NCBI GenBank assembly: GCA_001913845.2
Contig: MKGP02000069.1
Span: 1-63,738, forward strand
Length of the DNA: 63,738 bases
Direction of reading: 5' to 3'
Origin: Limnothrix sp. CACIAM 69d
Lineage (GTDB): Bacteria > Cyanobacteriota > Cyanobacteriia > CACIAM-69d
The notes under the pieces were generated by a model, which saw only the letters and a program-made list of their open reading frames with translations, ran no database searches and was not told the origin of the DNA. This document shows positions 58,078 to 63,630 of this stretch, piece by piece (positions within the stretch are counted from its first letter, which is position 1; each line of letters begins with the position of its first letter). The position numbers and the translations under genes were made by a program.

Positions 58078-61000
58078 CTAGCCCTTCGTTTCTGGCAGCA
58101 GGCACTTGTCCGAATCGCAGCCCGCCGGGCCCGCTTCCGCCATTTCGCCCTTGTCATAGCGCCGCAGGGCCTCGTGGAAACTGCTGATCCGCCGCCGCTG
58201 GAGCGCCGCATCGTACATTTCCTGATAGGTTTCCCGCGAAATTGGCTCGAAGGGCAAGCGGGGGAAGGTTTGTAGATCGTCAAACCGGGCCAGCAACGCC
58301 GCCGAGATGTAGCCCTCATCGTTTTGGATCGCCTGGTGAATCCGGCGGCCCAAGGGTTCGATTTCCGGCTCCCGCAGTTCGATCGTGGCGCTGGTGTTGT
58401 GGGTGGTGTAGTGGGTTTGTACCTGCATGTAGAAGTCAAACTGAGCCAGGGCGCTGAACTGCTCGATCGCGATCGTGTCCGCCCCCGGCAAGTCTGCCCA
58501 AGACACCGCCACCGGAATTTCCACCAGCCACTCCGTGCAGCGCGGATCAAACGGATCATTCAGCAAGTTGCCATTTTCATCCTTATCGGACTGGGACGGT
58601 ACAATACTGTAGCCATAGTCCAGACAAGCCAACGCCACCGGATCGTTTTTGCGGAACGTGATCCGCCGAATGAACCGCGCGGCCTTGGGTGGATGCCAAC
58701 CGGGTGAAGCCCCCGTCAACAGCGATTTTGTGCCCGAGGGTTGCACCGTCGTGCAGCGATTGGGCCGGCGCAAACCGTGGCGATCGCAGTAATCCCAAAC
58801 CGTTTGGTGGACAATTTCCCGCCAACGGCTGAGGTATTGCCGCTCCTGGTCTTTAAACTCCAAACCTTGCACGCTGTCCGGGCGACCCGCTTCCCACCAG
58901 CGCAACCAATCGACCCCAAAGGCTTGCACAAAGAAATCGAACAAACCGGTGAAGGAAACGCCCACGATCGGGTCAATCGATCGGCTGTATTGGTAGCGCT
59001 CTTCTTGGAACCGATGGTTGAGCAAACCCGCTACCGACAAGGCCCCAGCCTTGAAAGCATCCTCTTGGGTTTGGTGATCTTTCGGATCGATTTGATTGAG
59101 GTGAATTTCGCTCAGGTTGCACTGGCCAGTCAAAGTACCACCAAAAACGCCCTTGTGGAACTCTGGCTCATTGAAACAGAAGGTGTCGTGGCGACCATCC
59201 AACGGTTCGATCGAGCGAATCACCTGCCATTTCCCCTTAGCGGCCGGTTGATGACCACGGCTGGTATCTACTCGCTGGCAAGGAATGGCGGCACAGTCGG
59301 TGATTTGCAAATACCACAAATCTTTCTGACGAATACCTAGGTTAGTCGTTTCTTCCGCCCGGGCCATCAGGTTAATGGAAGAGCGAACGCCACATTTCAG
59401 CAACAACAGATAGATCCGATAGGCGCGATCGTAGCCCGAGAGGTAGAGGCGAACGCCACCGGTCGCCGTTAGGGAACCATCCGCATCAATCAAACCTGCA
59501 ATGAAGTGCAGAATGGCCTCACGATTCCAGCGGGCGATCGCCTCAAAGGGTTCAGCGGTCTGCTTCAGGTTCCGCACCTGCTCCGGATCAAATTCTCGAT
59601 CAAAGCCGGTGTAGAGCAAGCAGGGGGTGTCGGGGTTTTCCGCATAGAACCGAGGTTGACCCGATGTGCGACCCGCGATCGCCAATTCCTGCTGGTAGCT
59701 CTTGACTCCATAGAGCCGCAGTTGCAGTTGGGGCTTGCCATGGGATTGGCACAGAGAACCATCCCCAACCAATTGCCCGAGGGTGTAGGCCCAAATCGGA
59801 TCGATCGCCTCGCCATCGCGGTGGTCAATTTGGAAGGGTTCCGTATGGATGGCGTATTTCAGGTTCGGCAACTGGTCAATCAATTCGGCCGTTGTCCGTT
59901 CTTGATAGGCCTGACCAAAGCGATCTTTAACAAAGAATCGGTGGCCTTCCGTCACATCCAAATGCGTGCCATCGGCAAAATTCACGCGGAAGAGCGCCCG
60001 ATCGCGACCGGTCAAAATCGGCGTGACAGAACTCCAGCGCCGTCCATTCCAAACTTCCACGGATTGTCCCACCAAGGACTGAATTTCATGCAGTCCATCC
60101 CGGGTAATCAGCAGCGTATTCCCGGCAACACAGTGGAAATCAGCGCCTAGGATTTCACCACAGTTGTGAGCCACGAAGCCATTCGCATCAAATCGTGATG
60201 GGCCAGGAACTGTACAGTCATAAACTGCTTCAATTCCGCCAGGTGCGATTTCAGCGATCGTGACACTGAAGCGATCGCGATTCAGCTTGCGCTTGTAGTT
60301 ACTTAATAGCTCGTTGAGCTTGGCTTGTTTCTCAGGTTGCTGGAAACCGACCCGATCGCGAAACTCCGTGAGGTTGTCATTGGCAATCACCAATTCATGT
60401 TGCGCTTGGCAGAAGTAAGGAGCCAAGTTGCGATCAGAATCGGGCATCAAACGGACACCGGCTGGCCGACGATTTTGATAGATCGTTGAAACAATGCCAA
60501 TCCGCAGCAACATCCGCTGAACGGCTTCTAGGGTTGCCAAGTTACTTTGGGCTAAGCGGACGCTAATGCCTTTTTGCTGAGTGCCTTGAACACTGCCATC
60601 AGCATCAAATAGTCCCCGCAAGAAGCCGCAGTGAAACTCATAGCTCGATCGCTCAATTTCACCGGTCACCCATTTCTCGCGGCGGTGGATACCGAAGCGA
60701 TCGGCTAGGGCCGCCAAGCCACTCGAAGCAATTTGATGTAGGTGATGATGGGGATGATAGGAACCAGCCAAGTTCGCGCCACAGGCAACCGTTTTCTGGA
60801 GCGTTGCCACAGCATACTCAGCCATTTCCTGTTGCGAATCACCCCAAAAACGCAGAATTCCTTGATCGCTCCAGCTTGTTTCTGCGAGGGAGCCATCGCC
60901 AACCAGGTTTCCGAGCAACCAGCCTTCATCAGAAGTCCCGTGACCCGACCAGGGTTGAATGTCACGGTGATTATGAATAGAGAGGCGATCGCCCGGTTGC

Positions 61001-62487
61001 AAATCTTCAACAGCAGTCCATTCCAAATACTGCCGTTTTTGAGTTTGAGCACTCACGCGCAGGAGTTGGTGGTTTGCAGTCAGTCGCAGCGACAACCCTT
61101 CGCGAGTGGTTACTTTGAAGACTGGTTTATCGCCTGTGTAGAAAAAGCCTTCTGCCGTCGTGCTGAAAAGCTCGCCATTGACATAGGTTCCATGCTGTTG
61201 ACCAATCAGCTCCTTAACCTGGCGCGGGCCAAATTCTGTATGTACCCAGGTATCAGCCGTGATGCAAGGATTCAAGCCATAGCGTTGCAGACGATGAGCA
61301 GATTCTCGCTCATCAATTTCTGGTGACTTTGCTTTCAGCCACTCTGCACCCTTCTGTTCCTGAAAAGCAGCAATAAACGCTCTCTTTTCATCATCTCCAG
61401 AAATCAAATCGGCATTGCTGCGAGCGATCGCTTCGCCAGCCCATTGAATGGCACCTTCGCCGGAATAGAACTGCTTGCGAACTGCGTCAATGCACTCCGT
61501 TTCCGTGGGTTTGTGATGAAAAACTCGCGAGTGATTCGCCATCCGCAGGGAGTCGCGATCGGGATCAATTCGCCAATTACCAGACTCATCTTGCTGCCAC
61601 AAATTGTCTTTGGCAGTCGCTCCCAGCTCGTCGTTACTGTCAAATTGGCGGATTCCGGCACTGCGGCGAATATTTCCGGCTACAATTGTGACAGCAGCTT
61701 CGTCGATAAGTAAGCAGCATTCCACCGAGGTGAGTTGCCGACCGATCGCCCGGTTCAAGATGCGAGTCACCCGATCGTAGAGTTCCGGCAGCTTGATCGG
61801 GTTAGCCACGCCGCCGAAGCCCCGGAGCGTTTCCCCAGCCGGCCGCACGTTGCTGAGGTCGATCGCCACTTGCACTTCGCCATCAAAGCGCTCATCGCTG
61901 CACAGATCCAGCAAGGTTTGGTACGACTTCACCCAGCCCTGGCGACTGTCGCCCACCACCACACGCACCGCATTGCCAACGATATCCACCGTTGTTTCCT
62001 GCAAGCGTTGACCCACCGGAACCGTACCCAGCTCGCCCGTCACCGTCACGGTGATTGAGTTGCGCACTGGCGGGAGTTGTTCAATGTAGCGCGGTTCCAG
62101 CACGCCGCCCGTGCCACAGCCCATCATTGCCAAGTCCATCATCAGCCCGAAGGCTTTCCAGTCGATGACATTGGTGCTGGTGCAGTTGTAGGCTCCTGAA
62201 AAGTTTTGCGGGTTTTCGAGCCAGTCCGTGCCCCCAACCCACAGCCAACGCCCCGACGGCAGCGCCACAATCCGCTTCTGCATTCGATCGAGCAGGCTTG
62301 CTTCTTGATCGGAAAGATTGCCTAACTTGACCAAGCCGCGCAGGGTGCGATCGGTCGTTTGCTGCCACGATTCCCGCTCCCCGTCCATCCGACGGCTGTA
62401 GGTGCGGTAAAACACCGGGTAGGCGGTGGGGGCGTGGTCAGGGAAATCGACGGGTTGCTGCTGAGCGCGGTTCAGTTCTTGCACCAT
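58078..62487 (-). CDS. nrdJ: Adenosylcobalamin-dependent (class II) ribonucleotide reductase with two inteins
   Basis: 1469 codons, of which 705 are two inteins and 764 form the enzyme. It starts MVQELNRAQQQPVDFPDHAP. Catalytic cysteines are in GAYNCTSTNV, NP-CGEILG (thiyl radical site) and DFH-CNLSEI, and the C-terminal redox pair is GCDSDKCLLPE (C-x4-C). This pattern matches monomeric RTPR, which reduces nucleotides to deoxynucleotides with B12. Inteins at codons 408-775 and 786-1122 must splice to give a working enzyme, with only 10 extein residues between them. An upstream frame to 62592 runs through an inverted repeat, so 62487 is the better start. No cobalamin riboswitch was recognised. 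Confidence 0.95.
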   Translation of the reverse strand: MVQELNRAQQQPVDFPDHAPTAYPVFYRTYSRRMDGERESWQQTTDRTLRGLVKLGNLSDQEASLLDRMQKRIVALPSGRWLWVGGTDWLENPQNFSGAYNCTSTNVIDWKAFGLMMDLAMMGCGTGGVLEPRYIEQLPPVRNSITVTVTGELGTVPVGQRLQETTVDIVGNAVRVVVGDSRQGWVKSYQTLLDLCSDERFDGEVQVAIDLSNVRPAGETLRGFGGVANPIKLPELYDRVTRILNRAIGRQLTSVECCLLIDEAAVTIVAGNIRRSAGIRQFDSNDELGATAKDNLWQQDESGNWRIDPDRDSLRMANHSRVFHHKPTETECIDAVRKQFYSGEGAIQWAGEAIARSNADLISGDDEKRAFIAAFQEQKGAEWLKAKSPEIDERESAHRLQRYGLNPCITADTWVHTEFGPRQVKELIGQQHGTYVNGELFSTTAEGFFYTGDKPVFKVTTREGLSLRLTANHQLLRVSAQTQKRQYLEWTAVEDLQPGDRLSIHNHRDIQPWSGHGTSDEGWLLGNLVGDGSLAETSWSDQGILRFWGDSQQEMAEYAVATLQKTVACGANLAGSYHPHHHLHQIASSGLAALADRFGIHRREKWVTGEIERSSYEFHCGFLRGLFDADGSVQGTQQKGISVRLAQSNLATLEAVQRMLLRIGIVSTIYQNRRPAGVRLMPDSDRNLAPYFCQAQHELVIANDNLTEFRDRVGFQQPEKQAKLNELLSNYKRKLNRDRFSVTIAEIAPGGIEAVYDCTVPGPSRFDANGFVAHNCGEILGADFHCVAGNTLLITRDGLHEIQSLVGQSVEVWNGRRWSSVTPILTGRDRALFRVNFADGTHLDVTEGHRFFVKDRFGQAYQERTTAELIDQLPNLKYAIHTEPFQIDHRDGEAIDPIWAYTLGQLVGDGSLCQSHGKPQLQLRLYGVKSYQQELAIAGRTSGQPRFYAENPDTPCLLYTGFDREFDPEQVRNLKQTAEPFEAIARWNREAILHFIAGLIDADGSLTATGGVRLYLSGYDRAYRIYLLLLKCGVRSSINLMARAEETTNLGIRQKDLWYLQITDCAAIPCQRVDTSRGHQPAAKGKWQVIRSIEPLDGRHDTFCFNEPEFHKGVFGGTLTGQCNLSEIHLNQIDPKDHQTQEDAFKAGALSVAGLLNHRFQEERYQYSRSIDPIVGVSFTGLFDFFVQAFGVDWLRWWEAGRPDSVQGLEFKDQERQYLSRWREIVHQTVWDYCDRHGLRRPNRCTTVQPSGTKSLLTGASPGWHPPKAARFIRRITFRKNDPVALACLDYGYSIVPSQSDKDENGNLLNDPFDPRCTEWLVEIPVAVSWADLPGADTIAIEQFSALAQFDFYMQVQTHYTTHNTSATIELREPEIEPLGRRIHQAIQNDEGYISAALLARFDDLQTFPRLPFEPISRETYQEMYDAALQRRRISSFHEALRRYDKGEMAEAGPAGCDSDKCLLPETKG
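59122..60132 (-). mobile_element. Intein 2 of nrdJ with LAGLIDADG homing endonuclease
   Basis: 337 residues beginning CVAGNTLLITRDGLHEIQSL (block A), with block B GTHLDVTEGHRFFVKDR. The homing endonuclease motifs are TLGQLVGDGSL and FIAGLIDADGSL. It ends FHKGVFGGTLTGQ directly before Cys of CNLSEI. The terminal residues are Gly-Gln instead of the usual His-Asn. Gln-ending inteins are known to splice in some cases. It sits at the cysteine equivalent to the second active-site cysteine of RTPR. Confidence 0.93.
60163..61266 (-). mobile_element. Intein 1 of nrdJ with LAGLIDADG homing endonuclease
   Basis: 368 residues beginning CITADTWVHTEFGPRQVKEL (block A), with block B TREGLSLRLTANHQLL. The endonuclease motifs are WLLGNLVGDGSL and FLRGLFDADGSVQ. 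Blocks F and G are GGIEAVYDCTVPGPSRFDAN and GFVAHN, and the next extein residue is Cys of CGEILG. This is a canonical intein with all splicing residues. The insertion splits the NPCGE motif that carries the catalytic radical cysteine. Confidence 0.95.
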
Positions 62488-63263: not shown

Positions 63264-63630
63264 TTAAGTACAATAACAACACTTGGTAAGCCAGTTTCTC
63301 AGGCACCGTAAATCCACTAGTCGGGCTGCCAGTCTAGTTAATTGTTCCAACACCTCTATGGTTTCTGTTCTAAATTTCCACAAAAAGATTTCTAACTGTG
63401 ACCACATCATTTCTATAGGGTTAAAGTCTGGTGAATATACTGGCAGATATTCTACTCTTGCCCCTACTGCTTCTATCATTTCTCTCACCTCTGGGTGATG
63501 ATGAGAATTCAAGTTATCCATAACAACCACATCACCTACTTTTAATTGCGATGCCAAGTTTACTTTGACAAACTCTAGAAAATCTTCCTTTTTCATTGAG
63601 CCTTTCAAACCTTTAATCTCTAAGGGTCAA
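63264..63630 (-). pseudogene. IS630-family transposase, C-terminal part, interrupted by IS200
   Basis: The minus strand encodes LEIKGLKGSMKKEDFLEFVK, then VGDVVVMDNLNSHHHPEVRE and LPVYSPDFNPIEMMWSQLEI, the last two Asp and Glu motifs of the DDE domain, and ends LRNWLTKCCYCT, a typical IS630 tail. Coding stops at about 63630, where the left hairpin of an IS200 element begins on the plus strand. The N-terminal half is not in the window and may lie beyond the IS200. Confidence 0.85.

Follow-up and report, generated by a model that had tools for sequence, protein, structure and literature searches.

Self-splicing elements in ribonucleotide reductase (RNR) genes are a long-known subject, and by 2009 RNRdb held about 80 curated RNR inteins and over 100 group I introns (PMC2795772). 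In cyanobacteria, group I introns in the RNR genes of Nostoc punctiforme are cited to Meng 2007 in PMC12702839, and the title of another cited paper names a multi-intein cyanobacterial RNR gene. The NrdB intein of Aquifex aeolicus splits active-site residues, as do the inteins described here, and the Aquifex enzyme functions after splicing; unlike them, it is a single intein in the R2 subunit, between di-iron ligands (PMC8772380). A cysteine of the finger loop carries the thiyl radical in RNRs generally (PMC9531940), and homing endonucleases are established to target active sites and to bring about co-conversion (PMC2988022).

We analyzed contig MKGP02000069.1 of Limnothrix sp. CACIAM 69d, positions 1 to 63,738 (63,738 nucleotides; the window), in which the initial annotation had noted two inteins in nrdJ, each directly before a catalytic cysteine. 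We confirmed that this two-intein arrangement is real; the inserts belong to the well-known class of mobile elements outlined above. The arrangement is not unusual, however, since the same pairing recurs across many cyanobacteria.

The gene lies on the minus strand (62487-58078) and encodes a precursor of a monomeric class II, AdoCbl-dependent ribonucleoside-triphosphate reductase carrying two inteins. Its frame (62592-58078) is open for 1504 codons without stop or frameshift, and counted from the likely start, the ATG at 62487, the spliced NrdJ extein has 764 aa. NrdJ scores 755.2 bits against the TIGR02505 RTPR equivalog (cut-off 340) and matches Lactobacillus leichmannii RTPR (1L1L) with an E value of 7.9e-32. 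In this alignment the finger-loop NPCGE and the second active-site cysteine fall opposite those of the L. leichmannii enzyme, C408 facing RTPR C408 and C418 facing RTPR C419. The RTPR counterparts of C408 and C418 we take, from established RTPR biochemistry, to be the radical cysteine and one reducing cysteine. Also present in the extein are C102, whose placement in the 1L1L alignment is loose, and the pair C752/C757, which lies outside that alignment. By position and by RTPR biochemistry, C102 is presumably the partner of C418, and the roles of the C-terminal pair are likewise assumed from RTPR. A DDE_3 transposase fragment (69 bits; 63264-63608, minus strand) lies upstream of nrdJ.

Features of the nrdJ precursor gene, in window coordinates.
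Feature	Coordinates	Strand	Evidence
nrdJ precursor with two inteins	58078..62487	-	Open frame, TIGR02505, 1L1L match
N-extein, residues 1-407, includes C102	61267..62487	-	Translation and 1L1L alignment; C102 role by position
Intein 1 (site B), 368 aa, C1...HN, before C408	60163..61266	-	Intein_splicing 45.5 bits, LAGLIDADG_3 82.2 bits
Intein 1, first LAGLIDADG motif LLGNLVGDG	60892..60918	-	Alignment
Intein 1, second LAGLIDADG motif LRGLFDADG	60595..60621	-	Alignment
Extein spacer CGEILGADFH, 10 residues	60133..60162	-	Translation and 1L1L alignment
C408 codon (+1 nucleophile of intein 1; radical cysteine by alignment)	60162-60160	-	
Intein 2 (site C), 337 aa, C1...TGQ, before C418	59122..60132	-	LAGLIDADG_3 25.3 bits, AlphaFold model, fold matches
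Intein 2, first LAGLIDADG motif TLGQLVGDG	59758..59784	-	Alignment
Intein 2, second LAGLIDADG motif IAGLIDADG	59476..59502	-	Alignment
C418 codon (+1 nucleophile of intein 2; counterpart of RTPR C419)	59121-59119	-	
C-extein, residues 418-764, C-terminal C752/C757 pair	58081..59121	-	Translation and 1L1L alignment

On the minus strand, the first base of intein 1 and the last base of intein 2 are exactly the limits of the interval first assigned to the two inteins, 59122-61266. The proposed splits NP/CGEILG and DFH/CNLSEI are borne out by the translated frame, where the junctions read RYGLNP/CITADTW...FDANGFVAHN/CGEILG for intein 1 and ADFH/CVAGNTL...GGTLTGQ/CNLSEI for intein 2, and the spacer between them (60162-60133) has the 10 residues originally counted. 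Both inteins have the marks of class 1 (Hint-domain) inteins: Cys1, a block B T-x-x-H (TANH or TEGH), a C-terminal N or Q and a +1 Cys. Each also carries the LAGLIDADG endonuclease motifs that had been reported, two per intein with acidic residues in each, and LAGLIDADG_3 scores above its Pfam cut-off for both, Intein_splicing for intein 1. An AlphaFold model of intein 2 from a 43-sequence alignment (pLDDT 88.9, superseding a first run with 12 sequences at pLDDT 57) matches TliVMA (Z 24.8, rmsd 3.6, 302 aligned) and PI-PfuI (Z 23.9, rmsd 3.8, 310 aligned), and matches mini-inteins besides these endonuclease-bearing ones. PI-PfuI derives from an RNR gene, as the Pfu RIR1 intein (PDB 1DQ3). This is a LAGLIDADG RNR intein like intein 2, whose model matches it over the whole length with a profile match of 7.3e-5, but it is archaeal, longer (454 aa) and only 16% identical. 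Given the Pfam profile scores and the fold match of intein 2 to whole endonuclease-bearing inteins, the inserts are not chance open sequence.

The two inteins differ at their C-termini. Intein 1 has the penultimate His (AHN); intein 2 (TGQ) lacks it and has Gln in place of Asn as its last residue, a point absent from the initial annotation. Site-C alleles from other cyanobacteria in the alignment are likewise without the His, their final residue being Gln or Asn. This ending is a known variant: inteins without the penultimate His can splice, so its absence is no bar to intein membership, and splicing with a C-terminal Gln is known, including in the RNR intein of Chilo iridescent virus, which has a viral host and shares its C-terminal residue with intein 2 (PMC4031507). 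The terminal Gln and missing His of intein 2 may nevertheless slow splicing, as may the Pro at position -1 of intein 1. The Mth RIR1 intein presumably sits at the same NP/C site, also with Pro at -1; it was left out of the evidence.

We are highly confident that these are two unrelated homing inteins at adjacent, highly conserved sites within the part of a cyanobacterial class II RNR gene that codes for the active site. Each consists of a LAGLIDADG endonuclease and a Hint domain for splicing. Cys1 of the intein would form a thioester to be attacked by the +1 cysteine (C408 or C418), and cyclisation of the C-terminal residue, Asn in intein 1 and Gln in intein 2, would free the intein. The predicted product has NP-C408-GEILGADFH-C418-NL rebuilt and the enzyme active. 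That the splice nucleophile and the catalytic residue are one and the same amino acid at both sites, as first proposed, agrees with the 1L1L alignment (C408, C419). The companion proposal, an enzyme inactive until splicing, is also supported, since the finger-loop cysteine would be displaced in the unspliced form. For both inteins we infer splicing, the order of splicing and current endonuclease activity. Such sites are probably used because an endonuclease target covering invariant catalytic codons would be common and imprecise loss lethal, and a homing cycle would consist of gain with co-converted flanks and loss through replacement by an empty allele.

An extein search gave a match in 144 of 386 cyanobacterial genomes, some of whose assemblies are split into numerous contigs. 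We classed 86 nrdJ genes, all outside the picocyanobacterial family f19, whose genes among the matches listed were uninterrupted; classes were taken from match boundaries and fetched loci, or from boundaries alone where a locus was not fetched. Site A (after residue 275) is occupied in 33 of the 86, site B (before C408) in 26 and site C (before C418) in 24; 21 have an intron-like insert between codons 409 and 410, and 17 are uninterrupted. B and C occur together in 12, counting the window, so the initially suggested survey of relatives for one, both or no inteins, now run, finds all three states. Among named genomes, 68 loci have a relative of the site-B intein and 16 of these 68 also have C, with Microcoleus sp. 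EPA2, Okeania sp. SIO2F4 and Laspinema palackyanum D2a as B+C examples. A viral-collection contig (L162) whose nrdJ has B, C and further interruptions was excluded, being full of frameshifts.

On a 95-row extein tree, built with codons 246-445 left out, the minimum is at least 21 changes for site B, at least 24 for site C and at least 19 for the B+C pair, and thus the pairing has been gained or lost many times. B and C are positively associated over the 86 genes at a nominal, uncorrected p of 0.019; the association is not significant on phylogenetically independent pairs, and we make no claim of it. Intein B and the 409/410 insert are never found together (0 of 86, Fisher p 2e-4), but here too independent pairs were not significant and mutual exclusion was dropped.

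Within the genus three allele states are found: B+C in the window, A+B in one relative (G002) and both B and C empty in another (G001). Intein 1 is 95% identical to the G002 intein at the same site; against the remaining full-length alleles of its type the identity is 57-65%. The alleles closest to intein 2 share 72-82% identity with it, the 82% being to the same site in a genome of the same family (G005). For intein 1, dS between window and G002 is 0.58, close to the extein dS of 0.71, in keeping with descent from the ancestor of the genus. Its endonuclease domain has dN 0.018 and dS 0.59 (dN/dS about 0.03), and intein 1 is under strong purifying selection. The dS of intein 2 to its closest allele (1.6) is about that of the extein (1.53), both near saturation, so a recent horizontal gain of intein 2 is unsupported.

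The flanks of the sites are mosaic. Between the window and G001 nrdJ genes, dS is 0.08-0.13 at codons 1-250 and 441-764, 0.76 or saturated at codons 251-300 and 1.55 or saturated at codons 356-440, and differences peak at 59 in 60 codons against a maximum of 34 in 3000 shuffles. In each of the three genus members GC3 drops from 0.74 in the rest of the gene to 0.44-0.49 within codons 251-440, whereas 17 picocyanobacterial control genes have no dip (-0.015, sd 0.04). At codons 381-407 the window goes with G002 (88%) and G001 stands apart (57% to the window); at codons 408-440 G001 goes with G002 (90%) and the window stands apart (81-82%). We read this mosaic as foreign, probably co-converted flanks, with intein 1 perhaps lost from G001 by replacement and intein 2 perhaps having arrived in the window together with its downstream flank; these directions are tentative, the segments being short. 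The mosaic fits the homing cycle, with single events harder to orient, and together with the conserved endonuclease domain of intein 1 it is an indirect sign that the empty allele may be cut. The intein-free G001 gene (L043) has the largest GC3 dip among the compared alleles (0.74 to 0.44), around sites A, B and C, as if co-converted flanks had been kept after intein loss.

NrdJ is not the only RNR of its cell. Contig C93 of the same genome carries an operon (L083:2797-9043) with a second RNR alpha of 465 aa; among solved structures its best relative is the class Ø alpha of phage S-CBP4 (7URG, E 4.8e-130). A predicted cobalamin riboswitch (RF00174, 61.5 bits) precedes metE, with the alpha further downstream, and the 239-aa ORF that follows the alpha, which had no Pfam, NCBIfam or PDB sequence match, is by position probably its beta subunit. 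The operon is likely a B12-independent backup for NrdJ and methionine synthesis. The alpha is present in G001 (97%) and absent from G002, and a class III RNR was not found in the window's genome. Eight other B+C genomes (G032, G131, G192, G329, G301, G309, G123 and G160) gave no PF02867, PF00268 or NrdD match. PF02867 is weak on RTPR-type NrdJ, scoring 13 bits on that of the window, and this absence concerns other RNR types rather than a second RTPR; no second nrdJ place in these eight was among the extein matches listed. NrdJ is thus seemingly their sole RNR, and both inteins presumably splice in vivo there. The initial annotation had counted another intact RNR carrying the dNTP supply against its reading, and the second RNR of the window's genome goes part of the way towards this.

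A tandem duplication of one intein onto the neighbouring site would account for the adjacent sites, the shared Hint-LAGLIDADG architecture and the homology of the two inteins (26% identity over 280 aa, E about 4e-12). That identity is far below the 95% and 82% to same-site alleles, and each site is often occupied alone. Since each intein has closer relatives at its own site in other genomes than in the adjacent intein, the insertions were independent, and we regard duplication as ruled out for practical purposes. It is also most unlikely that splicing fails in one intein or in both and leaves nrdJ effectively dead, with dNTPs coming from the class Ø-type RNR. The second RNR behind a cobalamin riboswitch and the unusual ending of intein 2 would suit this, and in principle nrdJ could fail without killing the cell. 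Extein and inteins are intact, however, with dN far below dS, as long as B12 is available the riboswitch would normally silence the backup, and inteins of the same types occur in genomes where no other RNR was found, G032 among them with a Gln-terminated intein 2.

The two inteins might instead form a functional module in which slow, redox-sensitive splicing brakes dNTP synthesis post-translationally, with NrdJ kept off during oxidative or metal stress. In favour are the catalytic role of both nucleophilic cysteines, the atypical splicing residues of intein 2 and the strong purifying selection on intein 1; in addition, the presence of its intein raised metal loading of the Aquifex R2 (PMC8772380). 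Against a brake stand the patchy presence of the inteins on the tree, the near-identical gene of a genus member that has no inteins, the strong conservation of the endonuclease domain, which points to homing, and the association of B with C, nominal before correction and not significant on independent pairs; we think it very unlikely. A broader version makes the NPC-GEI-x7-C stretch an arena of 30 bp that two inteins and an intron share or contest, with intein occupancy of the radical and redox cysteines acting as a redox- or metal-controlled dNTP brake with the B12-regulated class Ø-type RNR as backup in this genome; this seems improbable as well.

As two homing inteins, the pair in the window is a clean added case of a known pattern, in which the active-site codons of RNR genes serve as a hot spot for self-splicing elements. 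The value of the case is comparative: with B+C, A+B and empty alleles in one genus, amid foreign-looking flanks, intein gain, co-conversion and loss become traceable, and the B+C genomes with no other detected RNR provide natural evidence that two inteins separated by 10 residues can both splice in vivo.

Further elements were seen in the surveyed genes. An intein at a site D, near codon about 547 (TTVQPSG/TKS), is present in L182, L181, L177 and L175. In G321, sites A, B, C and D of nrdJ are all occupied, and interruptions lie within its first 245 codons; this layout, with its non-coding interruptions in the 5' half, resembles the multi-intein cyanobacterial RNR gene as far as the title of that paper describes it, whereas the window has only B and C occupied and no introns. 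In L069-L073 and L077, codons 409 and 410 are separated by conserved non-coding inserts, two codons past the radical cysteine. Their 5' exon ends in T and the insert apparently in G, as in group I introns, and no Rfam model matched them; we call them intron-like from these ends and from the literature on Nostoc punctiforme. Like the Nostoc introns they would be mobile elements of a cyanobacterial RNR gene, inserted two codons from site B; unlike inteins, the Nostoc introns are RNA elements, and none is in the window.

In two genomes of one genus, G087 (L176/L177) and G242 (L178/L179), nrdJ is two unlinked genes broken at about residue 375-395; no split intein was found at the break, and the halves carry ordinary inteins of their own. 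A Kaiserbacteria record and viral contigs also have the intein 1 type before the NPC cysteine, there in RNRs with another finger-loop context (CGEIxLPPNSACNL). Viral RNRs in contigs L165, L166, L170-L172 and L174 carry Gln-terminated relatives of intein 2 ahead of their second finger-loop cysteine, and L174 has one intein 2 relative at ENVH/SETY, which resembles the metal site of an RNR small subunit.
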